A stretch of 44,980 bases of DNA, taken from a virus. The notes under the pieces are model-generated. The model ran no database searches and was not told the origin of the DNA. It saw only the letters and a list, made by a program, of their open reading frames with translations. The position numbers were made by a program, and so were the translations under genes. How positions within the stretch are numbered: the stretch's first letter is position 1; every line of letters starts with the position of its first letter. The stretch spans positions 1 through 44,980 of IMG/VR virus record IMGVR_UViG_3300032296_001139. One strand, given 5' to 3'. Shown here in pieces: positions 3,526 to 44,961 of this stretch.

Positions 3526-3532
3526 CAACATA

Positions 3533-3558
3533 CCCCGGATGTATACCATCCGGGGTTT
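3533..3558 (+). terminator. Rho-independent-type terminator after the SGNH-like gene
   Basis: A perfect 9-bp stem (CCCCGGATG at 3533-3541 with CATCCGGGG at 3547-3555), a TATAC loop and a short T-rich tail. It lies 7 nt after the stop of the SGNH-like gene and 19 nt before the next start. It closes the cassette that begins at 1441, so polymerase genes downstream would depend on read-through. Confidence 0.75.
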
Positions 3559-3840: not shown

Positions 3841-3994
3841 TAAAGAAATCAAGGAAGCAAACGAGCGTTCGCTGAAATACATGGCGGAGACCTATGCACT
3901 GGTGAATGACATCAAACGCAACATACCTGACTGGCGGTCACGCCTGTCACCGAACACCGTGAAGTTGATCAAATCAATCAAGGAGAGCAAGTGA
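3830..3994 (+). CDS. Small helical hypothetical protein (54 aa)
   Basis: A 54-aa, mostly charged helical protein (MTTNKEIKEANERSLKYMAE...). It ends in a segment, DWRSRLSPNTVKLIKSIKESK, that looks amphipathic. The ATG lies within the last codons of the preceding gene and its stop overlaps the GTG start of RNA polymerase by 4 nt, so it is coupled on both sides. No known family. It could be a polymerase partner by position alone; nothing else supports that. Confidence 0.65.
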   Translation: MTTNKEIKEANERSLKYMAETYALVNDIKRNIPDWRSRLSPNTVKLIKSIKESK

Positions 3995-6492
3995 TATTCG
4001 ATACTCACTCCAAGGAAACGAAGGACTGGTTGTTCGTCTCTCAGAAAGAATTGGAGATCGAGTCCATTGATCGCGGTGTCTCAAGATACCGTGAGTTGGT
4101 GGCACGCAAGAAGCAAGGCGAGAAGCCTGGTGATCTGAAACTGATGAGTCGATGGATGCCGTACTTGATCAAGGCCATCGAACTTGAACAACAGCAGATT
4201 GAAGATCGTCTGCTGAGTGGACAGATCCGATCCAACGACAGCCACGAGTTGATGATGCTGTCGATGGACCCTGATAAACTTGCGTACATCACGCTTGTGT
4301 CGCTGTTTCATGTGGCACAGAAACCCAACGACTGTCCCGTGCTGACGGCGGCGTTGTATGTTTCATCGAACGTCAAGTTGCAGAAGTATCTTGACACGAT
4401 GCGTAAACAAGATCGAGACGTTCTCACGATGCTGATGTCGAAGCGCAAGCGTATCGACAAGGCATCCATCCAGATGTGCAAGCGCAAGATGGGCATCGCT
4501 AACATCGAGTGGCCCAAGCGCAGGCGCATCGAACTCGGAGCCGCACTGATCGGGCTTGCCGTCGAATGCACGGACATGTTTGACATCGTGTATGTCAAGT
4601 CAACCGAGCGTGGCAACGGTGGCCGGACGGCAGGCTTCGGATACAAGACCACGAAGCACATTGTCCTCAAGCCCAAGACACGACAGATGATGGAGAAATA
4701 CCATCTCGACATGGAGACCATGAATCCCTACGGTCTTCCGATGGTCGTTCCTCCGAACCCTTGGACAGCCGAGGGAAGCGGCGGATACCTGTGCCTCAAG
4801 AACACGGTAGTCAAGGGGACATTCGAGCAGATGATCACGAAGCCGTCACCGCAACTGATGGAGGCGTTGAACATCTGCCAGAACACCGAGTGGCGCATCA
4901 ACAAACGCGTGGCCGATGTGATGCAGGCCGTGTGGGAGGCGGGCGGAGACAAGGCCGGAATCCCTGGCCGTGAACTGAAGAAGATTCCGCCCAAGCCCAA
5001 GGGCTTCAACCCCAAGGCCAAGCGCAAGAAGCGATGGGAGTCAGTGTCCAAGGAAGACAAGGACCGTTGGCTTGCCGATGCCGAGGCGATCCACGACTGG
5101 AACAACAAGACCATCGGGTTGCGCTATCAGATGCTGTTCAAGTTAGACATCGCCCGACGATTCGCTAAGTACCCGGCCATCTACTTCCCCTACCAAGTCG
5201 ATTGGCGTGGCCGTGCGTACCCCATCCCGGCGTTCGTACACCCTCAAGCCGACGACTCAGGCCGTGCGCTGTTAGAGTTTGCCCAGCCCATTGCGCTCGG
5301 GCATTGGGGATTCTACTGGTTGGCCGTGCATGTGGCTAACCTGTTGGGTGCGGACAAAGACAGCCTCGAAGGTCGCCTGCGAGTTGTCAAAGACATGTGC
5401 GCTTGTGACCAACTACAGCGGTGGGCAAGAGACCCGCTTACCCACAAGGAGTGGATGGACTATGAAGACCCGTTCAAACTGCTGGCCGCCGTCATGGAGT
5501 TCGTGGAATGTATCACCGTCCATGGTGTGCCTGGGGATTGGTCTCGGGCTGGCCTGGAGTCTTATGCCAAGACATTCCAGTCCCGTACTCCTGTGGCTAT
5601 GGACGGAAGTTGTAACGGCCTACAACACTACTCGGCAATCGGCCTTGATCCTGTGGGTGGTCGGGCTACCAATCTGGTGCATGGCGATAAACCACAAGAC
5701 ATCTATTCGATGGTTGCTGATGTCGTCAATGCCACCATCGAGCAGGACTGCAAACTGACCGAGGACCAGACCATGCCGTGTTGGGCGTGGCGCGGCCATG
5801 TGTCACGCAAGACCGTCAAGCGTGCCGTGATGACCACACCATACGGTGTGACTAAGCAAGGCATCCTGAGGCAGTTCATTCAGGACCGCCACACGGACGG
5901 CTTGCAAGGCATGGCCTACAAGAACGCCAACTACCTAAAGCAGGTCGTGTACGATGCGGTGTCACAGGTTGTCGTGGCCGCACGACAGTACATGGACTGG
6001 CTACAGAATGTGGCCAAGATCCTTGGCGAACACGGTCTGCCTGTCGAGTGGCAAACTCCTGCAGGATTCATCGTGTCCCAAGCCTACACGTCGAAGAACC
6101 GCCGACAGGTGTATACCGCTGTCGGCAACATCGACTACAAGGTGTCGGACGACGACCCCGACATTGTTATCACCAAGCAGGTTCGCGGTGTTGCGCCAAA
6201 CGTGGTTCACTCGCTTGACGCAAGCCACCTGTTCCTGACGATCTTGGCTCTGCAGAAGAAAGGCATCAGTAACTTCGGGCCTGTGCATGATTCGTACGCC
6301 GTTCACGCTGGCTTCGTCGCCACGATGAACTACGAGATCCGTCATCAGTTTGTGCAGATGCACAAGCAATCCGTGTTGGAGACCATGAAGACGTATCTCG
6401 AAAGCAAGTACGGTATTGCGCTTCCCTCTTTGCCACCTCGTGGCAGTTTGGATTTGTATGAAGTCTACCAGTCAGAATATTTCTTTCATTGA
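3991..6492 (+). CDS. T7-like single-subunit DNA-directed RNA polymerase (833 aa)
   Basis: Transcribes the middle and late phage genes from phage-specific promoters. The product is 833 aa against 883 in T7. Motif A is AMDGSCNGLQHYSA, with the metal-binding Asp at residue 538 (T7 Asp537). Motif B is RKTVKRAVMTTPYG, giving Lys610 and Tyr618 as the equivalents of T7 Lys631 and Tyr639. Motif C is VHDSYAVHA with the second catalytic Asp at 767. The C-terminus ends SEYFFH; T7 ends in an aromatic FAFA foot, so an aromatic foot may be kept here. The GTG start has AGGAG upstream and overlaps the previous gene. Its likely targets are the three 40-nt elements at 1441, 16,242 and 34,398 (inference). Confidence 0.97.
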   Translation: MIFDTHSKETKDWLFVSQKELEIESIDRGVSRYRELVARKKQGEKPGDLKLMSRWMPYLIKAIELEQQQIEDRLLSGQIRSNDSHELMMLSMDPDKLAYITLVSLFHVAQKPNDCPVLTAALYVSSNVKLQKYLDTMRKQDRDVLTMLMSKRKRIDKASIQMCKRKMGIANIEWPKRRRIELGAALIGLAVECTDMFDIVYVKSTERGNGGRTAGFGYKTTKHIVLKPKTRQMMEKYHLDMETMNPYGLPMVVPPNPWTAEGSGGYLCLKNTVVKGTFEQMITKPSPQLMEALNICQNTEWRINKRVADVMQAVWEAGGDKAGIPGRELKKIPPKPKGFNPKAKRKKRWESVSKEDKDRWLADAEAIHDWNNKTIGLRYQMLFKLDIARRFAKYPAIYFPYQVDWRGRAYPIPAFVHPQADDSGRALLEFAQPIALGHWGFYWLAVHVANLLGADKDSLEGRLRVVKDMCACDQLQRWARDPLTHKEWMDYEDPFKLLAAVMEFVECITVHGVPGDWSRAGLESYAKTFQSRTPVAMDGSCNGLQHYSAIGLDPVGGRATNLVHGDKPQDIYSMVADVVNATIEQDCKLTEDQTMPCWAWRGHVSRKTVKRAVMTTPYGVTKQGILRQFIQDRHTDGLQGMAYKNANYLKQVVYDAVSQVVVAARQYMDWLQNVAKILGEHGLPVEWQTPAGFIVSQAYTSKNRRQVYTAVGNIDYKVSDDDPDIVITKQVRGVAPNVVHSLDASHLFLTILALQKKGISNFGPVHDSYAVHAGFVATMNYEIRHQFVQMHKQSVLETMKTYLESKYGIALPSLPPRGSLDLYEVYQSEYFFH

Positions 6493-13239: not shown

Positions 13240-13248
13240 CACGCACTG

Positions 13249-13278
13249 CCACCGTCACCCCGGGGGCGGTGGTGGTTT
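13249..13278 (+). terminator. Hairpin before the DNA polymerase gene
   Basis: CCACCG at 13,249-13,254 pairs with CGGTGG at 13,267-13,272 around a CCCC/GGGG-containing loop, followed by TGGTTT. The stem is GC-rich but short and the T-run weak, so it may attenuate transcription or be a processing site and not a full stop. It fills the gap between 13,239 and the polymerase start. Confidence 0.45.
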
Positions 13279-19483: not shown

Positions 19484-19511
19484 GCACCTGTAGCCCACAG
19501 GTTACAGGTGC
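19484..19511 (+). other. Hairpin after the scaffold gene
   Basis: Perfect 9-bp stem GCACCTGTA (19,484-19,492) with TACAGGTGC (19,503-19,511), 6 nt after the scaffold stop, followed by ATTT but no real T-run. Together with the hairpin at 19,557 and a small stem TCGTC/GACGA near 19,660 it fills the 271-nt gap before the capsid gene, the longest gap in the virion block. No gene or tRNA is convincing there. It could be a processing site that gives the capsid mRNA its own 5' end. Confidence 0.5.
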
Positions 19512-21311: not shown

Positions 21312-21350
21312 AAACCCCACATTCAGAAATGGATGTGGGGTTTATTTCTT
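21312..21350 (+). terminator. Strong terminator after the capsid unit
   Basis: A 13-bp stem (AAACCCCACATTC at 21,312-21,324 with GGATGTGGGGTTT at 21,331-21,343, one G-U) with loop AGAAAT, followed by ATTTCTTT. This corresponds in place to the T-phi terminator of T7, which lies just after gene 10, and would set the capsid level above the downstream tail genes. Confidence 0.85.
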
Positions 21351-27916: not shown

Positions 27917-27944
27917 TGTCGGACGATAGAAATGTCGTTCGACA
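27917..27944 (+). other. Stable GAAA-tetraloop hairpin between core genes
   Basis: A 12-bp stem with two G-U pairs (27,917-27,928 against 27,933-27,944) closed by a GAAA tetraloop, 6 nt after the gp15-like stop. It is followed by ATTTAG, not by a T-run, and then by AAAGGAGG and the next ATG. It looks more like an RNA-processing or stabilising site than a terminator. Confidence 0.6.
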
Positions 27945-34409: not shown

Positions 34410-34440
34410 GAAACATCTTCGCGCTTTCGATCCCTCAATA
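34398..34440 (+). promoter_or_regulatory. Candidate phage-RNA-polymerase promoter, copy C
   Basis: Third copy of the 40-nt element: CCTGCGAACTGAGAA (the TGA is the stop of the preceding gene), spacer, then GCGCTTTCGATCCCTC. Its 3' end forms the left arm of the terminator at 34,429. It heads the tail-fibre, lysis and packaging unit. Confidence 0.55.
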
Positions 34441-34462
34441 AGAAATTATTGGGGGATCTTTT
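34429..34462 (+). terminator. Strong terminator after the giant core gene
   Basis: A 13-bp stem (GATCCCTCAATAA at 34,429-34,441 with TTATTGGGGGATC at 34,446-34,458, one G-U), a GAAA tetraloop and TTTT tail. The left arm is shared with element C. If element C is a promoter its start must lie so that this stem is either within the leader or not formed; otherwise the element itself may be a regulatory end signal. Confidence 0.85.
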
Positions 34463-37808: not shown

Positions 37809-37812
37809 ACAC

Positions 37813-37849
37813 AGGAGCATTCGGTCGAAAGATCGGATGCCTCTTTATG
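37813..37849 (+). promoter_or_regulatory. Hairpin between the ribosome site and start codon of terL
   Basis: AGGAG (37,813-37,817) lies 29 nt before the terL ATG (37,847). Between them GCATTCGGTC (37,817-37,826) pairs with GATCGGATGC (37,831-37,840; two G-U) around a GAAA tetraloop. Folding leaves only CTCTTT between the stem and ATG, bringing AGGA to a normal distance of about 6 nt. No other good ribosome site is present. It could also be read as a terminator (tail CTCTTT). Confidence 0.55.
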
Positions 37850-39589
37850 ATTATTCCTGAAATCGCTAATGACTTTAGAAACTTTCTGTATCTCTCTTGG
37901 CAGGCTATGGGTCTGCCTGAGCCTGATTACATTCAATACGACATCGCTGACTGGTTGGCCAATGGCCCCGCAAAGCGACAGGTACGAGGTATGCGTGGCG
38001 TAGGCAAGTCCTACATCACGGCGGCCTATGCCAACTGGAGGTTGTACAAAGATCCCGATATCTCAATCATCGTTGTGTCGGGTGTCGCTAATCTTGCTCA
38101 GGACTTTATCGGTCTGAGCCGCAAGATGCTGGACTCGATGGACATCTGCCAACACCTGAGACCGGGTGAGTGGGACAAGGACGGAGCCTTTCAGTTCGTG
38201 TCACGAGCAAGAAGCAGACCGCAGAAAGATCCCACGGTGTGGTCCTGCGGTATCGGCACAAGTAAGACAGGGCATCACGCCCCGTTGATTATCTGTGACG
38301 ATATTGAGACACCTGAGAACTCAGATACCGTCGAGAAGCGAGAATGGCTGTTACGACAAATCTTTGAACTGGAAGATATCCTGAATCCCGGCGGAGAGTT
38401 GGTATTCCTGAATACACCACAGAGTACAGACTCTGTGTACATCAATCTCGAAAGGCGAGGGTATGAACCCAGGCGTTGGCCTAGTAGGTATGTGAATCAC
38501 CTTGAGGAAGACGAGGCAAGGTGGGTGTCTCCTGTAATCTTGGAACCCGTAGCAAAGGGCGATAAGTTACCGGGTCAACCTACGTTGCCTCAGAGATTCT
38601 CCGAGGAATACCTGCTTGAGAAAGAAGCCAAGTACGGTCCAGCCAGGTTTGCAATGCAGATGCAGTGTGATCCTAGGTTGGCTGATAAGGACAAGTACCC
38701 ACTGAAGTTGAGAGACTTCATGGTTATGGAGACACACAGAGATATTGCTCCTGCACGAGTAGTCTGGGGAACCAGTGAACCCGTGCAGGATATACCCTCT
38801 GTAGGCTTTGGTAACGATAGATTCTATCATCCTATCATGGTTGATAAAGACAGTTGGGACCAGTATGACACAGGTGTTATGTTTGTAGACCCTAGTGGTG
38901 GTGGCACAGTATCAGGAGATGAACTAGGATACTGCATCGCTAAAATTCGCGCTGGTACGATTTACGTTCTTGAGAGCGGCGGTCTTGTAGGTGGACACTC
39001 AACGAGGAACCTGCAGACGTTGGCGGAGCGTTGTGCTGAATATGAGATCTGCAGGGTGGTCGTTGAGGAGAACTACGGTAAGGGTATGTTCTCTAAATTG
39101 CTTGCTCCTGTTATGGGCGATATCAACGGACCTACTGAGATCACTGATACTCCTAGTGGTAATACACAAAAAGAAAAGAGAATCATTGATACCCTGCTAC
39201 CTGTATTGGGATCTCACAGAATAGTCCTAGATCCCAGAGTCGCCAAGGACGAAGTACTTACTAAACAAATTACTCATATCACCTACAACCGTGGTTCTCT
39301 CAGGCATGATGACCGCATTGATGCCTTAGCGGGAGCCATTGCAGCTCTTGCGGTGGATCTGCCTGCAGTAAGTTGGGAATCCAAGGCTGAAGAGATGGCG
39401 ATGGAACGTAAACGTAAAGCTTATGAAGAATGGATCTCAGGTTCTACCTTAGGTCTTACTAACTCTAGAGTTATGTTTGCTGATTCCAGTGACTTCAATG
39501 TAATAAAGAAATACAATACAAAACCTAAAGACAATAAATCTAAGGTTCTTGACAATTGGAAGACCATGCGGAAACGCATGAAGTGGTAA
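37847..39589 (+). CDS. terL: Large terminase subunit, T7 gp19-like (580 aa)
   Basis: ATPase and nuclease that fills the head. 580 aa against 586 in T7. N-terminal ATPase: Walker A RGMRGVGKS (Lys54), Walker B LIICDDIE (Asp151, Asp152, Glu154), and a coupling segment VFLNTPQSTDSVY. C-terminal RNase-H-fold nuclease: VMFVDPSGGG (Asp348), VVVEENYG (Glu407/408) and RHDDRIDALAGA (Asp488, Asp489, Asp492). The T7 type of terminase makes direct terminal repeats, so the phage probably has short terminal repeats that vanished on circular assembly. Translation may depend on the upstream hairpin. Confidence 0.96.
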   Translation: MIIPEIANDFRNFLYLSWQAMGLPEPDYIQYDIADWLANGPAKRQVRGMRGVGKSYITAAYANWRLYKDPDISIIVVSGVANLAQDFIGLSRKMLDSMDICQHLRPGEWDKDGAFQFVSRARSRPQKDPTVWSCGIGTSKTGHHAPLIICDDIETPENSDTVEKREWLLRQIFELEDILNPGGELVFLNTPQSTDSVYINLERRGYEPRRWPSRYVNHLEEDEARWVSPVILEPVAKGDKLPGQPTLPQRFSEEYLLEKEAKYGPARFAMQMQCDPRLADKDKYPLKLRDFMVMETHRDIAPARVVWGTSEPVQDIPSVGFGNDRFYHPIMVDKDSWDQYDTGVMFVDPSGGGTVSGDELGYCIAKIRAGTIYVLESGGLVGGHSTRNLQTLAERCAEYEICRVVVEENYGKGMFSKLLAPVMGDINGPTEITDTPSGNTQKEKRIIDTLLPVLGSHRIVLDPRVAKDEVLTKQITHITYNRGSLRHDDRIDALAGAIAALAVDLPAVSWESKAEEMAMERKRKAYEEWISGSTLGLTNSRVMFADSSDFNVIKKYNTKPKDNKSKVLDNWKTMRKRMKW

Positions 39590-39594
39590 ATGGG

Positions 39595-39630
39595 ATACCC
39601 ATTTAGATAACTCTAAATGGGTATTCTTTA
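39595..39630 (+). terminator. Terminator after terL, with an alternative hairpin
   Basis: A perfect 13-bp stem (ATACCCATTTAGA at 39,595-39,607 with TCTAAATGGGTAT at 39,612-39,624), TAAC loop, tail TCTTTA. An alternative stem, AAATGGG (39,588-39,594) with CCCATTT (39,598-39,604), uses the same left arm and would exclude it. Ends the last coding unit. Confidence 0.85.
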
Positions 39631-39954: not shown

Positions 39955-40208
39955 CAAATCGGATAACTCTCTCCAGTATCCCGTTCAAATCGGATATCGG
40001 GGTCCACTATCGCCAATCAAATCGGATAGATTTGTCCGCAATACCGCCTATTCTGGATAAAAAGATCCAAATATCGGGATACCTGTCGTTTTCGGATAAG
40101 ATTGTCCGATTTGTCGCCCTTTTCGGATACACTTGTCCGATTTGATCCGAATATCGGATAGGCTTGTCCGATTTGGACTCGTCAAATCGGATACGCTTGT
40201 CCGATTTG
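39955..40208. repeat. Array of imperfect dyads at about 31-bp spacing
   Basis: At least seven copies of CAAATCGGATA or TCGGATA, four of them followed 4-5 nt later by TGTCCGATTTG. The best unit (40,183-40,208) is a 9-bp inverted repeat, CAAATCGGA and TCCGATTTG, with an 8-nt centre. CGGATA starts at 39,960, 39,991, 40,023, (CTGGATA 40,053), 40,093, 40,124, 40,155 and 40,188, so steps are 31-33 bp, except one of about 39. Each step equals about three helical turns, so bound proteins would sit on one face. Confidence 0.75.
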
Positions 40209-40350
40209 CCGTGGTCGCGTCTGGATTCCCATAGGCGCGTTCGTTCGTGGGGGTGGCCGAGGGTATGGGTGAAGCCCTGAAACGCGCCACAACGAATCGT
40301 AGCCGTTAGGGTATTTGGTCAAATCCGTTCGGGTTTCGTTCACAAATCTG

Positions 40351-40417
40351 ATCGAAAAAAGAAAAAAAGATGCGCAAACCGCTTGACACTGCCGATGAGA
40401 AGGGTATACTTGTGGTG
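40351..40417 (+). promoter_or_regulatory. Host sigma70-type early promoter with A-rich upstream tract
   Basis: TTGACA at 40,383-40,388 and TATACT at 40,405-40,410, 16 bp apart: a near-consensus sigma70 promoter. An A-rich tract (about 40,354-40,369, AAAAAAGAAAAAAAG) lies just upstream of -35 as an UP element would. Transcription would start near 40,417 and read into the early genes. It is the only near-consensus host promoter I see in the window. Confidence 0.8.
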
Positions 40418-40485: not shown

Positions 40486-40806
40486 ATGAATAAGTCTGAA
40501 GCATTGGCCGAAGCATTTGCCGAGTACCGTGCAATCCGGATGCCGAAGGGCTTGAATGCCCTCACCCTTGACAGGGTGGCGGTTGGGCATTTGGATGCCG
40601 AGAAGATTCTGGCCGAATACACTGCGCGTGTCCGTGAGTCTATCGACCGAAGAAACTCGGCACTGGCGAAGATTGCATCCTATCCCGCATCCGTCAATAT
40701 TCGCATAATCACGCCCAATGGTCGGACGATCGACGCAAACGGCGCGCGCATCGTTTCGGCTATCATCCGTGAGGATGCCGACATTGTAAAGGGTGAAGTA
40801 GTCTAA
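40486..40806 (+). CDS. First early protein, hypothetical (106 aa)
   Basis: A 106-aa protein with CTGGAGC upstream of its ATG. First gene after the sigma70 promoter, hence probably the first phage protein made. N-terminal half helical (KSEALAEAFAEYRAIRMPKG, DAEKILAEYTARVRESIDRR); C-terminal half beta-rich (SVNIRIITPNGRTIDANGAR). Nearly neutral with many Arg and Ala. No family recognised. By position it might play a role like T7 0.3 (anti-restriction), but it is not an acidic DNA mimic, so no function is proposed. Confidence 0.75.
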   Translation: MNKSEALAEAFAEYRAIRMPKGLNALTLDRVAVGHLDAEKILAEYTARVRESIDRRNSALAKIASYPASVNIRIITPNGRTIDANGARIVSAIIREDADIVKGEVV

Positions 40807-40845
40807 TACCATCCGCGCGGGTTGGAACATATCCGCGCGGGTATT
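40805..40845 (+). other. GC-rich stem-loop after the first early gene
   Basis: AATAC (40,805-40,809) with GTATT (40,841-40,845) and, after a 3-nt bulge, CCGCGCGG with CCGCGCGG (40,813-40,820 and 40,833-40,840), 12-nt loop. It overlaps the stop codon of the first early gene and is followed by GATCTTTG. Possible partial terminator or processing site. Confidence 0.55.
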
Positions 40846-41183
40846 GATCTTTGACAAGTAAAGAACGCGATACCCTACCGATACGGTCTAGGGAAGGGGT
40901 ATCGTCCGCACTCAATATGCGCGCAGTGCGGCGCGTAGGGTATTCGGCGGATTTGCGCGGATACGGTGCAAGTGTACGGGATATCGGCCCGATAGGTTAT
41001 ATACCTTATCGGCGGACGATATCGGCGGACACGCTTCAGAGCGTACCATATTCGGCGCGGATTCAATACCGAACCCGATTCGATACCATCGGCATAGCAC
41101 CCCGATACGGCATCGGATTATCGTAGAACACTGGAAAGAAACCCCAAACAACCATCCGCGCGGATATCCGTGCGGTTATATTG
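40846..41183. other. Dyad-rich stretch without a convincing gene
   Basis: About 340 nt dense in CGATAC, GATATCGG and GCGGAT words and their complements, e.g. CGATACCC near 40,869 with GGGTATCG near 40,899, and a near-palindrome CCGATAGG...CCTTATCGG near 40,990-41,012. A 91-codon frame (TTG at 40,851 to 41,126) is open on the + strand, but both other-strand frames are open too and its ribosome site is poor, so I do not call it a gene. ATCCGCGCGG recurs at 41,153. It may be a structured RNA leader or a protein-binding region. Confidence 0.4.
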
Positions 41184-41213
41184 CACGTCCGTGCGGGACA
41201 CCGTGCGGACGTG
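41184..41213 (+). other. Stem-loop in the leader of the 122-aa gene
   Basis: Perfect 8-bp stem CACGTCCG (41,184-41,191) with CGGACGTG (41,206-41,213), 14-nt loop. Immediately upstream of the duplicated leader segment at 41,216. Confidence 0.6.
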
Positions 41214-41215
41214 TA

Positions 41216-41271: not shown

Positions 41272-41640
41272 ATGCGTGATTTGTTTGCGGCTATCGTTCG
41301 TGCGGTTTCGTCCAACCAATCGGGCGGAACATTTGATCGGGACGGCAAGCCCGCGCAATATCGTACGGGCTACCAGGTCGGGCTGTGGGGCCAGGAGTTA
41401 CGGTTCAAGTGGCTGGACGCAAGCGAAGTGTTTGACGTAGTTTCGTGGCTGGGTCGCGTTCGCGGCGATCTGGACGGCGGGGCGTTCGTGGGTCTGTGGT
41501 TTGACACGGACACGGGCGAGTACTGTTTGGATGTTTCGGTGTACATCGCCGAGCGTGAGCGAGCCTTGCGGTTGGGCAAGTACAACACCCAGAAGGCTAT
41601 CTGGGACTGGGCTAACAGCGAGTCTGTGGCTGTCGTGTGA
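41272..41640 (+). CDS. Early hypothetical protein (122 aa)
   Basis: A 122-aa protein. The start is the ATG at 41,272 with GGGAGTG 8 nt upstream; the frame is open further 5' but only through the structured leader. Helical N-terminus (RDLFAAIVRAVSSNQSGG), then a mixed domain with GYQVGLWGQELRFKWLD, DLDGGAFVGLWFDTDTGEYC and DVSVYIAERERALRLG, the last reading as a strand then a helix. Trp-rich. No family recognised. The stop codon is the first base triplet of the structured element that leads the next gene. Confidence 0.72.
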   Translation: MRDLFAAIVRAVSSNQSGGTFDRDGKPAQYRTGYQVGLWGQELRFKWLDASEVFDVVSWLGRVRGDLDGGAFVGLWFDTDTGEYCLDVSVYIAERERALRLGKYNTQKAIWDWANSESVAVV

Positions 41641-41690
41641 TTGTCCGTACCGTGCGTGTGGAATACCATGCACGGTGCTTTTCCTACGGG
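41638..41690 (+). ncRNA. Structured cis-acting leader with GGAATACCAT loop, copy 1
   Basis: ACCGTGC (41,649-41,655) pairs with GCACGGT (41,670-41,676); the loop holds GGAATACCAT and the stem is followed by GCTTTT. It starts at the TGA of the preceding gene and ends in the leader segment of 41,680. A paralogous copy stands at 43,263. Between the two, loop and flanks are conserved while stem bases change in pairs (CCGTGC/GCACGG here, CCACAC/GTGTGG there), so the fold is under selection. Type ncRNA is used for a cis leader; no ligand is implied. Confidence 0.6.
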
Positions 41691-41729
41691 TACTGCCGAC
41701 TGTCGTCGTCGCCGTGGGTATCGGAGTGT
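41680..41729 (+). repeat. Duplicated early-gene leader segment, copy 2
   Basis: Second copy of the 41,216 segment, TTTCCTACGGGTACTG ... GCCGTGGGTATCGG, ending in GGAGTGT before the ATG at 41,736. It follows the structured element at 41,638. Confidence 0.7.
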
Positions 41730-41735
41730 TTGGCT

Positions 41736-42269
41736 ATGGACTATGTGACATTGTTGGGCTATGTTCGTTCGGGCATGGAAGTTGACGGTCACCTGTGGTA
41801 CGCTCGTGCGGGGCGTACGATTCGTTCCTACGCACGCCGTCACAAGGTGGACTTCGGCACGGTGTGCGGGGTGTTGGCGGTCACCTCGCCTCGTGTCCCT
41901 GTCGCACGCAATGTGCGGCTGACTCGGGCGTGGCTGGAGCACTTCAGCACGGACGGGATGATGCGGGGTGTCCGCACGTCCCTGGTAAACTACCTGATCG
42001 ACGGGCGCATCCGTGGCCTCAAGACAGGCCCGTTTGCGGCGGCCCTGAGTGGGGACGAGGAGGCCATCGTCCTCGACACTTGGATGGCCAAGTGTTTCGG
42101 CGTGGATCAGAAGGTGTTCGGCACGAAGAAGGGTATCGCCGAGTACTCGGCGCACATCCGTGAGTTGGCCCGCATGACGGGGCTGACACCCGCACAGACG
42201 CAGGCCGCCCTGTGGTGCGGGTACATTCGGTCGGTCGGACGTACTCCCGCCGACCTGTCGATGGATTGA
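41736..42269 (+). CDS. DUF7178-like / helical DNA-glycosylase-type fold protein (177 aa)
   Basis: A 177-aa helical, basic protein with ATCGGAGTG before its ATG. Several segments recall a family I know as DUF7178, common in actinobacterial phages and plasmids: YARRHKVDFGTVCGVLAVTS (the 'vCgviAalSP' segment), SPRVPVARNVRLTRAW, FAAALSGDEEAIVLDTWMAK (the 'vDrha' position with an Asp), and LTPAQTQAALWCGYIRSVGR (the 'LTPaQvQAvtWv' end). That family has a predicted helix-hairpin-helix base-excision-glycosylase-like layout; a DNA-binding role is plausible. Remote match by eye only. Followed by a strong terminator. Confidence 0.6.
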   Translation: MDYVTLLGYVRSGMEVDGHLWYARAGRTIRSYARRHKVDFGTVCGVLAVTSPRVPVARNVRLTRAWLEHFSTDGMMRGVRTSLVNYLIDGRIRGLKTGPFAAALSGDEEAIVLDTWMAKCFGVDQKVFGTKKGIAEYSAHIRELARMTGLTPAQTQAALWCGYIRSVGRTPADLSMD

Positions 42270-42280
42270 TTGACGCTCCG

Positions 42281-42314
42281 CTCGGGGTGCGGCGAAAGCC
42301 GTGCCTCGGGTTTT
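42281..42314 (+). terminator. Strong early terminator with GAAA tetraloop
   Basis: A 13-bp stem including five G-U pairs (CTCGGGGTGCGGC at 42,281-42,293 with GCCGTGCCTCGGG at 42,298-42,310), GAAA loop, TTTT tail. It lies 12 nt after the 177-aa gene and would end or reduce the first early transcript. Confidence 0.8.
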
Positions 42315-42337
42315 GACGGACACGCCGTGTGTCTGTC
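42315..42337 (+). other. Stem-loop ahead of the 51-aa gene
   Basis: GACGGACAC (42,315-42,323) pairs with GTGTCTGTC (42,329-42,337; one G-U) around GCCGT. It begins directly after the T-run of the preceding terminator and lies 32 nt before the next ATG. The following CTGTCTGTCTG is a short slippage-prone repeat. Confidence 0.55.
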
Positions 42338-42369
42338 TGTCTGTTGGTTTGTGTACAGGAGTGTATGCT

Positions 42370-42525
42370 ATGCGTTATTCTGAGGCTGAGGTAGGTTTGT
42401 ATTGGGAAGATTGGGAGAGGGTGTTGGCTGACTGCGAGACACGGTACTCGGTCGATGCCGAGACCTTCACCGATGCGGGGATTGTGGATGTGTTGGACAA
42501 CAGACAGGAGGTGTCGCGTGGATGA
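42370..42525 (+). CDS. Small acidic hypothetical protein (51 aa)
   Basis: A 51-aa acidic protein, MRYSEAEVGLYWEDWERVLA followed by a Thr/Asp-rich helix. ATG at 42,370 has ACAGGAGTG 8 nt upstream; another ATG 5 nt earlier is in a different frame. It ends 8 nt inside the next gene and carries that gene's AGGAGG site. No family recognised. Confidence 0.7.
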   Translation: MRYSEAEVGLYWEDWERVLADCETRYSVDAETFTDAGIVDVLDNRQEVSRG

Positions 42526-42766
42526 CGGATTCGACAAGGTTGTGTTATATTTCGATCAGTTTTGGGGCGGATGTGAACACTATCCCAGTGCGGTGCGTGA
42601 GCAGACATACTTCGTAGATGTCTGCGGCCCGTTTCACCCCAGTGATTTTGACATCATCTCCGAGGAGTGCTATGCTCTTGGGTGGGAGGTGAAGTCGGTG
42701 GCCGCCGCCGACAAGTCTGGATACCTGGAGTTTATGTTGATTCCAAGGGAGGATTACGATGGCTGA
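42518..42766 (+). CDS. Small acidic hypothetical protein (82 aa)
   Basis: An 82-aa acidic protein that starts with GTG, preceded by AGGAGG at 7 nt. Rich in aromatic residues and Asp/Glu (KVVLYFDQFWGGCEHYP, TYFVDVCGPFHPSDFD) with a C-terminal part EVKSVAAADKSGYLEFMLIP that reads as strand-helix-strand. Could be a small alpha/beta fold. Not recognised. Overlaps the next gene by 8 nt. Confidence 0.7.
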   Translation: MDDGFDKVVLYFDQFWGGCEHYPSAVREQTYFVDVCGPFHPSDFDIISEECYALGWEVKSVAAADKSGYLEFMLIPREDYDG

Positions 42767-43037
42767 TTGGCATTTCCCTAGTGTCGGTGTGAAAGAGATT
42801 GACATGGATGTGTTCGATGTGTGGGCATCGGGCGACTACCACTGGGATTCTTCAATCGAGGTCGATAACATCGACCAACTGTGGCAAGCCTTTGTAGATG
42901 ACTGCAAGGCCGGAGATCCTGACTATAAATCAGGAGATCCTACGGTGATCTTCGGCGACGATGCCGAGGTGATGACCAAGGCACAGTTTGCAGACGCTGT
43001 GTTGCGTGCTGTTGTTCGTAAGATCTATGACAAATAA
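42759..43037 (+). CDS. Acidic hypothetical protein (92 aa)
   Basis: A 92-aa, strongly acidic protein (Asp-rich: KEIDMDVFDVWASGDYHWDS, IDQLWQAFVDDCKAGDPDY) with a helical end AQFADAVLRAVVRKIYDK. GGGAGG lies before the ATG, inside the preceding gene. High negative charge and small size recall early host-takeover proteins or DNA mimics; that is a guess from charge alone. No family recognised. Confidence 0.72.
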   Translation: MADWHFPSVGVKEIDMDVFDVWASGDYHWDSSIEVDNIDQLWQAFVDDCKAGDPDYKSGDPTVIFGDDAEVMTKAQFADAVLRAVVRKIYDK

Positions 43038-43049
43038 GGAGATGTTAGA

Positions 43050-43265
43050 ATGTACACGGTGAAAAACTATCGTACAAAGAAGGCGATCAAGGAAGACCTG
43101 GCGCAGGGTATCAAGGTCGAGGTGTTCCAACCCAACGCCGACCTGACGGGTGCGACTGTGCCTGACAACGGCACGGTGTACCTGGAGGGGCCGCATTACC
43201 CTGAGCCGCATCGGTGGTACGCCACGGGTAAGATGGTGAACGGCGTGCTTGTTTCGATAAAGTGA
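43050..43265 (+). CDS. Small conserved phage protein (71 aa)
   Basis: A 71-aa protein with AAGGAGAT before its ATG. N-terminus MYTVKNYRTKKAIKEDLAQG then IKVEVFQPN, followed by a beta segment TVYLEGPHYPEPHRWYATG. This 'KnfktKKalKeAv..G..V.vfqPg...........G.v.lEGPHYPePHkWYA' pattern is one I have seen in small proteins of many tailed phages of aquatic bacteria; it has no assigned function. The compact fold is probably beta-rich. Its stop is the first triplet of the structured element at 43,263. Confidence 0.78.
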   Translation: MYTVKNYRTKKAIKEDLAQGIKVEVFQPNADLTGATVPDNGTVYLEGPHYPEPHRWYATGKMVNGVLVSIK

Positions 43266-43310
43266 TTTGACTGTGCCACACATGCGGAATACCATGTGTG
43301 GTGCTTTGTG
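43263..43310 (+). ncRNA. Structured cis-acting leader with GGAATACCAT loop, copy 2
   Basis: CCACACATG (43,276-43,284) pairs with CATGTGTGG (43,293-43,301), a perfect 9-bp stem; loop CGGAATAC, followed by TGCTTTG. Shares flanks GTGATT... and GGAATACCATG...GGTGCTTT with the element at 41,638, while the stem bases differ in compensating pairs. A second hairpin, TGCGGAC with GTCCGTA (about 43,309-43,331), follows before the AGGAG site of the next gene. Confidence 0.62.
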
Positions 43311-43362
43311 CGGACGCATCGTGTGTCCGTAGGTTTGTGTCCTTGTAGCAGGAGTTTGTGTT

Positions 43363-44364: not shown

Positions 44365-44961
44365 ATGAGCAACACACATGACTTCAATGACGGCAACGGC
44401 CCAGTCCCGGCACACCGCCATAGCAACGGCGGAGGCTGGGTAGCAGACACAGCGAAGGTAGACGCAAGCGCATACGTTGGGCCTCATGCGCAGGTCTTCG
44501 GCAATGCGCGTGTCTACGGCTATGCTCAGCTCTACGGCTATGCTCAGCTCTACGGCTATGCTCAGCTCTACGGCAATGCGAGGGTCTACGGCTATGCTCA
44601 GCTCTACGGCAATGCGAGGGTCTACGGCAGTGCGAGGGTCTACGGCAAAGCGGGGGTCTCCGGCGATGCGCAGGTCTTCGGCAATGCATGGGTCTTCGGC
44701 AATGCGCATGTCTACGGCGATGCGAAGGTCTCCGGCGATGCGTGTGTCTTCGGCGATGACAACGCCGCAAAGATCGCTGAACTGACTCGCAAACTCGATG
44801 CACTTCGTAACGAGGTTCGGGCATGGCGTGATTGGGATGCCAACTGTGGCGTTGAATTGCATCCAGATAATATCGAAGGATGTTCGTGCGAAGGCGTGAA
44901 TCGTGTGGAAAATGTGCTGAATGCACGACAAGCCACCGATGCGGCAAAAGGATTGGAGTAA
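44365..44961 (+). CDS. Hexapeptide-repeat left-handed beta-helix protein (198 aa)
   Basis: A 198-aa protein with AAGGAGATGA before its ATG. Residues 46-129 are fourteen hexapeptides of the types GNARVY, GYAQLY and GDAKVS, with a further partial turn. The small residue-aliphatic pattern every six residues is that of left-handed beta-helices, giving about five turns of 18 residues. The N-terminal 25 residues are His/Gly/Asn-rich. Residues 132-160 (NAAKIAELTRKLDALRNEVR) form a coiled coil, so the protein is likely a trimer or dimer. No active-site His typical of acyltransferases is seen, so a scaffold or binding role is more likely than an enzyme. Unlike pentapeptide Qnr proteins it is not a DNA mimic by sequence. 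Confidence 0.82.
   Translation: MSNTHDFNDGNGPVPAHRHSNGGGWVADTAKVDASAYVGPHAQVFGNARVYGYAQLYGYAQLYGYAQLYGNARVYGYAQLYGNARVYGSARVYGKAGVSGDAQVFGNAWVFGNAHVYGDAKVSGDACVFGDDNAAKIAELTRKLDALRNEVRAWRDWDANCGVELHPDNIEGCSCEGVNRVENVLNARQATDAAKGLE
44500..44751. repeat. Fourteen in-frame 18-bp tandem repeats
   Basis: Fourteen uninterrupted units of the type GGCAATGCGAGGGTCTAC. Units 2, 3, 4 and 6 are identical (GGCTATGCTCAGCTCTAC) and units 5 and 7 are identical, so the array has been copied recently and probably varies in length between relatives. All units keep the frame. Confidence 0.9.

Follow-up and report, generated by a model that had tools for sequence, protein, structure and literature searches.

A covarying hairpin pair in a T7-like virus belongs to a genome-wide set of hairpins that follow stop codons

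The window, by which we mean the whole 44,980-nt stretch of viral DNA analyzed here, represents a T7-like virus. It carries a single-subunit RNA polymerase gene (3991-6492) that shares no more than about 33% identity with named phages, a T7-type terminase gene (37847-39589), and a strong sigma-70-like promoter (40383-40410). Downstream of this promoter, small genes form a block that we infer to be the host-transcribed early region. Two IMG/VR contigs belong to the same phage group (RNA polymerase 93% identical), and the early region is present in just one of them (L004/L005, termed g1), which serves throughout as the relative for comparison. Intermediate relatives of this phage may exist, since a search by RNA polymerase alignment missed even the known relatives.

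Several other features of the window lie outside the hairpins described below. Positions 40089-40210, ahead of the early promoter, hold repeated TTGTCCGATTTG / CAAATCGGAT units that also occur in the relative and that, by analogy with the short repeats of T7, may lie near the genome end. The AT-rich segment at 1500-1570 contains TATACACTAA-like repeats, also preserved in the relative, which are candidate phage-polymerase promoters at the early/middle boundary. A repeat-rich gene at 44471-44760 (YG-A type repeats) matches a gene of Acidovorax phage AP1 with 82% DNA identity over 290 bp and has weaker matches in unrelated phages, and the small protein beginning MYTVKN (gene 43050-43265) is related to proteins encoded on at least 118 viral contigs and matches nothing in Pfam.

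Within the block of small genes are two similar hairpins, as follows.

Hairpin A, 41647-41678, plus strand: GTACCGTGCGTG-TGGAATAC-CATGCACGGTGC, a 12-bp stem with loop TGGAATAC (read as a GAAUA pentaloop next to a bulged U), 7 nt 3' of the stop codon of gene 41272-41640, tail UUUUCC.

Hairpin B, 43273-43304, plus strand: GTGCCACACATG-CGGAATAC-CATGTGTGGTGC, a 12-bp stem with loop CGGAATAC, 8 nt 3' of the stop codon of gene 43050-43265, tail UUUGUG.

Both are GC-rich and stable, with predicted folding energies of -20.3 (A) and -18.2 (B) kcal/mol and z-scores of -3.3 and -2.9; equally good folds arose in 0 of 200 shuffled sequences for A and in 1 of 200 for B. Within the window, the pattern GGAATACCATG is found free of mismatches at A and B only, and a covariance model built from the two hairpins and their two counterparts in the relative gives 63.8 bits for A and 60.3 for B, the next-best match in the window reaching 17.6. 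The original prediction placed two RNA elements here, each starting with the stop codon of the gene before it, and the TGA codons at 41638-41640 and 43263-43265 are indeed where they begin. The six-base arms that it quoted are present but form only the middles of the stems, which extend over 12 bp; the GTGATT that it listed as shared is likewise present in both, but consists only of the stop codon and its neighbors and is absent from the copies in the relative. The three compensatory pair changes between A and B are as it described; two further pairs are altered on one side, and pairing is intact throughout. When A and B alone are compared, 6.7% of randomizations leave no pair broken, a moderately unlikely outcome, and their covariation on its own is weak evidence.

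The relative adds two copies, C (L004:2503-2534) and D (L004:3514-3545). Across A to D, all 48 pair cells are standard (12 of 12 pairs form in each copy) and three pairs are changed on both sides. The tail GGTGCTTT is retained in three of the four copies. Seven loop positions are invariant over the four, and nine stem positions are variable (P = 0.05).

Searches farther afield recovered little else. The RTGYGGAATACCATGYRYGG pattern was found in IMG/VR in the known relative only, and a 15-base loop pattern matched 41 stretches there, none convincing outside the relative. The covariance-model search that had been proposed for finding further copies returned C and D along with A and B, but no other homologues among 163 sources, some of them the neighborhoods of MYTVKN-protein and RNA polymerase relatives. 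The best match of the pattern scan of GTDB is a fully paired CCTACCGTG-TGGAATAC-CACGGTAGG shortly after infB in Rhodovulum sp. PH10 (L225:2205-2230); because 60 related genomes gave matches at background score only (21 to 28 bits), we regard this hairpin as probably due to chance rather than as a homologue. Within the sources searched, the exact element thus appears to be found only in this phage group. No Rfam family matched the window at gathering score, and relaxing the threshold produced chance-level matches, none of them on A or B.

A and B had been put forward as a singular paralogous pair, but hairpins of this kind recur along the whole window. Intergenic gaps of 25 nt or longer number 16; in 13 of them there is a hairpin whose predicted energy is -12 kcal/mol or better, and 12 of these hairpins are strong, with stems of 10 to 16 bp that start 2 to 19 nt past a stop codon (the one after 6492, at -12.1 kcal/mol with a 9-bp stem, is marginal and was left out of the set). 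Besides A and B, the hairpins are the following.

3532-3556, plus strand: post-stop hairpin with loop UAUAC (CUAAC in the relative) and a strong terminator score (31.7).

13245-13276, plus strand: post-stop hairpin ahead of the DNA polymerase gene that starts at 13269, identical in the relative.

19484-19511, plus strand: post-stop hairpin with a 12-bp stem and one two-sided pair change in the relative.

21312-21343, plus strand: post-stop hairpin with a GAAA loop and a strong terminator score (36.3), following the gene next after the major capsid gene.

27917-27944, plus strand: post-stop hairpin with a GAAA loop.

34429-34458, plus strand: post-stop hairpin with a GAAA loop, between a 2148-aa gene and a tail-fiber-like gene.

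37817-37840, plus strand: post-stop hairpin with a GAAA loop, preceded by a CAGGAG that resembles a Shine-Dalgarno sequence and followed by the start of the terminase gene at 37847.

39592-39627, plus strand: post-stop hairpin after the terminase gene, with a 16-bp stem and a UAAC loop.

40811-40842, plus strand: hairpin after the first early gene (40486-40806), with a 12-bp stem and loop TGGAACAT, identical in the relative.

Hairpin P, 41182-41215, plus strand: same kind, with a GACA loop and tail UUUCC, closing a 339-nt noncoding stretch.

Hairpin Q, 42280-42311, plus strand: same kind, after the DUF7178 gene (41736-42269), with a 14-bp stem and a GAAA loop (GAAUA in the relative, where two pairs are altered on both sides).

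Two places in this series deserve separate mention. Looping out of 37817-37840 (within region 37809-37849) would leave a spacing of about 6 nt between CAGGAG and the start codon, and its stem is kept in the relative. The 339 nt at 40843-41181, which lie between two hairpins and contain no convincing gene, are well conserved in the relative; a matching hairpin folds in both phages from differing stems (CCGATAGGT/ACCTTATCGG in the window, GCCTGGGG/CTCTAGGC in the relative), and because it is matched despite quite different stem sequence, this stretch may be a structured noncoding RNA.

Comparison of ten of the hairpins between the window and the relative shows that 23 of 122 pairs differ and that all 23 still pair, five of them through two-sided changes, whereas the null expectation for 23 differing pairs is a mean of 7.2 broken, with none broken in 0 of 20,000 randomizations (a statistic that is somewhat favorable, as the hairpins were picked for folding and their arms matched by hand). 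The conclusion that the RNA fold is what is kept thus draws far stronger support from the genome-wide set than from A and B alone; A and B are real hairpins whose RNA fold is under selection. In a set of thirteen, made up of the twelve strong post-stop hairpins and P (which follows a noncoding stretch), the 8 nt after the stems contain on average 4.1 T. The average is 2.1 in intergenic DNA, where none of 20,000 samples reached 4.1, and 2.0 before the stems.

The gene to which each hairpin belongs can be read from differences in gene order. The order is RDLF gene, DUF7178, and RYSE in the window and DUF7178, RHLF, and RYTE in g1, and the first hairpin of a gap keeps its upstream neighbor in every informative case, even though different genes come next. 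In both phages, a GGAATAC hairpin lies after the RDLF-type gene (A and C), hairpin Q after the DUF7178 gene, and a GGAATAC hairpin after the MYTVKN-type gene (B and D). The match of A to C rests mainly on position, since the similarity of A to C (28) barely exceeds that to D (26). We therefore consider the first hairpin to be a 3' element of its upstream gene. The second hairpin of a gap, in contrast, tends to accompany the gene 3' of it (two of three); these hairpins are as follows.

Second hairpin downstream of A, 41683-41719 (end approximate), plus strand: CCTACGG...CCGTGGG, tracking, in the window and the relative alike, the DUF7178 gene that lies 3' of it.

Second hairpin downstream of Q, 42315-42337, plus strand: GACGGACACG-CCG-TGTGTCTGTC.

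Second hairpin downstream of B, 43309-43331, plus strand: GCGGACGCA-TCG-TGTGTCCGT, not terminator-like.

The position of the first hairpins, together with the U enrichment, resembles that of intrinsic terminators. Terminator scores, which combine the hairpin and the U tract with a cutoff of zero, are 21.8 for A, 8.1 for B, 30.7 for Q, 22.2 for P, 31.7 for the hairpin at 3532, and 36.3 for that at 21312, and A scores like the T7 controls TE (20.8) and Tphi (20.2); C and D of the relative fall slightly under zero (-6.3 and -2.8, respectively). U occupies five of the 8 nt after the stem in A, four in B, and, by eye, three in the relative's copies. A alone passes a stricter terminator pattern scan, which the known T7 terminator TE also fails. 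Further information comes from LUZ100, a T7-like phage that is only distantly related and for which transcript ends were mapped experimentally (PMC10134795). Three of its post-stop or intergenic hairpins end 4 to 6 nt before mapped termination sites (named T7, T16, and T19), including one with a 12-bp stem and a GAAA loop 18 nt past the stop of the major capsid gene (T16) and one between the internal virion protein D gene and the tail fiber gene (T19), placed like the hairpin at 34429 here. One of the three scores just 0.1, and most LUZ100 gene ends are without such a hairpin. As in TE, Tphi, and these LUZ100 sites, a GC-rich post-stop hairpin is here followed by a short U-rich stretch; what differs from the intrinsic terminators of T7-like phages is that the U tracts are only 3 to 4 nt long, that C and D score below the cutoff, and that several copies lie within one early operon. 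Any termination in the early region must be leaky, because strong termination would cut off the later early genes.

T7 offers a second precedent in its RNase III processing sites, at which cleavage gives the upstream RNA a stable stem at its 3' end. T7 hairpins follow the stops at 1433, 5822, 6394, 11161, 13853, and 36822, which we take to be the places of sites R0.5, R1.1, R1.3, R3.8, R4.7, and R18.5, and these are likewise intercistronic, post-stop, and 10 to 13 bp long in the mRNAs of a T7-like phage, where processing occurs in the host-transcribed early region. The folds, however, are different: five of the six T7 sites folded (R0.5, R1.1, R1.3, R4.7, and R18.5) form an additional lower stem on the far side of an internal loop and have stem sequence in common, whereas A to D, folded with their flanks, show a single 12-bp stem without an internal loop. 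Nor is U enrichment after the stems expected of processing sites, and we consider ribonuclease processing unlikely as the role of A and B.

The terminator scores, the LUZ100 transcript ends, and this difference in fold together make leaky termination or 3'-end protection the most likely function, and we infer that A and B probably act as leaky terminators or as hairpins protecting the 3' ends of their upstream genes, as members of a phage-wide set. Under this model, host RNA polymerase would transcribe through the hairpins in the early region, and the GC-rich 12-bp stem with its short U-rich stretch would stop a fraction of the polymerases; alternatively, the stem would form or shield the RNA 3' end against 3'-to-5' exonucleases. 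The GNRA-like cap would let the hairpin fold fast and stay folded, and the hairpins, starting 2 to 19 nt past a stop codon, would mark the boundaries of gene blocks, each of which would be made in graded amounts and as stable RNA.

The elements had originally been viewed as 5' leaders of the downstream early genes, which would control the translation or stability of those genes. They do lie 57 to 58 nt ahead of the next start codon and are followed by a second hairpin that mostly (two of three) tracks the gene downstream, but the first hairpin accompanies its upstream gene even where the two phages differ in gene order, and inspection by eye revealed no consistent complement of the loop near the start sites. 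That view is not borne out by the gene orders, and a leader role for A and B now seems quite improbable.

Another reading turns on the loop. In the minimum-free-energy fold of A and B, GAAUA is closed by a G-C pair and the preceding pyrimidine is bulged, the alternative being an open 8-nt loop. Hence, although the loop had been thought undescribed and indeed has no match in Rfam, it can be read, on the predicted fold, as a pentaloop of the known GNR(N)A type, members of which adopt GNRA-like folds in phage boxB hairpins (PMC12550061). Lambda boxB belongs to this class, and N peptides bind GNRA-like pentaloops (PMC12550061), so that GGAAUACC might be a sequence-specific site read by a phage or host protein, as in boxB-like read-through control; the seven invariant loop bases of A to D, expected by chance in about 5% of cases, are in its favor. 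A to D are nevertheless closely similar and may share recent ancestry, no further homologues turned up in the searches, and no boxA-like (CGCTCTTA-like) sequence was seen by eye between the stop codon and the stem. Loops are also exchanged between the two phages: the GAAA loop of Q in the window is replaced by GAAUA in g1, which suggests that loop stability matters rather than loop identity, and the UAUAC loop of the hairpin at 3532 is replaced by CUAAC. The exchange at Q, together with the GAAA loops in five hairpins of the set, indicates that the loop of A and B most plausibly belongs to a class of stable caps, in which UAAC and UAUAC probably replace each other as well. On the predicted fold, A and B share with the boxB hairpins of lambda, P22, and phi21 a loop of GNR(N)A type (UMAC-type loops also occur) on a phage RNA hairpin (PMC12550061), but differ in the extra bulged pyrimidine and in having no upstream boxA-like sequence and no N-like protein identified.

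We therefore hold a sequence-specific binding site to be very improbable, and the specific proposal that the YGGAAUAC-capped hairpins are bound by an RNA-binding protein of the phage or its host, which would set the read-through of one early gene block after another, to be slightly more so. The boxB stem is about 5 bp, compared to 12 bp in A and B, and we know of no boxB-like read-through control described for the T7-like phage group. A parallel in organization is with the intercistronic hairpins of T4, likewise a phage-wide set with unusually stable loop caps; those carry CUUCGG, whereas the loops of this phage are GNRA- or UMAC-like (GAAA, GAAUA, UAAC, and UAUAC).

A DNA element in the form of a sigma-70-like promoter (TTGACT/TTGACA, 17 nt, TACCAT, the -10 region being the kept GGAATACCAT) merits hardly any credence: B matches 9 of 12 positions and, by eye, copy D carries a complete TTGACA with the same spacing, but the corresponding bases are TTGTCC in A and CTTCCA in C, and the two-sided stem changes and the other post-stop hairpins would be left unexplained. 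Also dropped were a promoter of the phage's own polymerase type (no other copies in the late region), a tRNA, a CsrA site (the loop has GGA but not the ANGGA context), and mimicry of 16S rRNA, despite the shared GGAAUACC, which in 16S rRNA is presumably not a hairpin loop.

Most likely, then, A and B are ordinary in kind, namely, terminator-like 3' hairpins, capped by GNRA-like loops, in a T7-like phage. Gene blocks that end in a conserved 3' hairpin, which moves together with its gene, constitute a general layout that explains the covarying pair, and the hairpins provide a clean natural case of tetraloop and pentaloop caps (GAAA and GAAUA) replacing each other. If leaky termination is the true function, short U tracts may tune the dosage of early genes in such phages.
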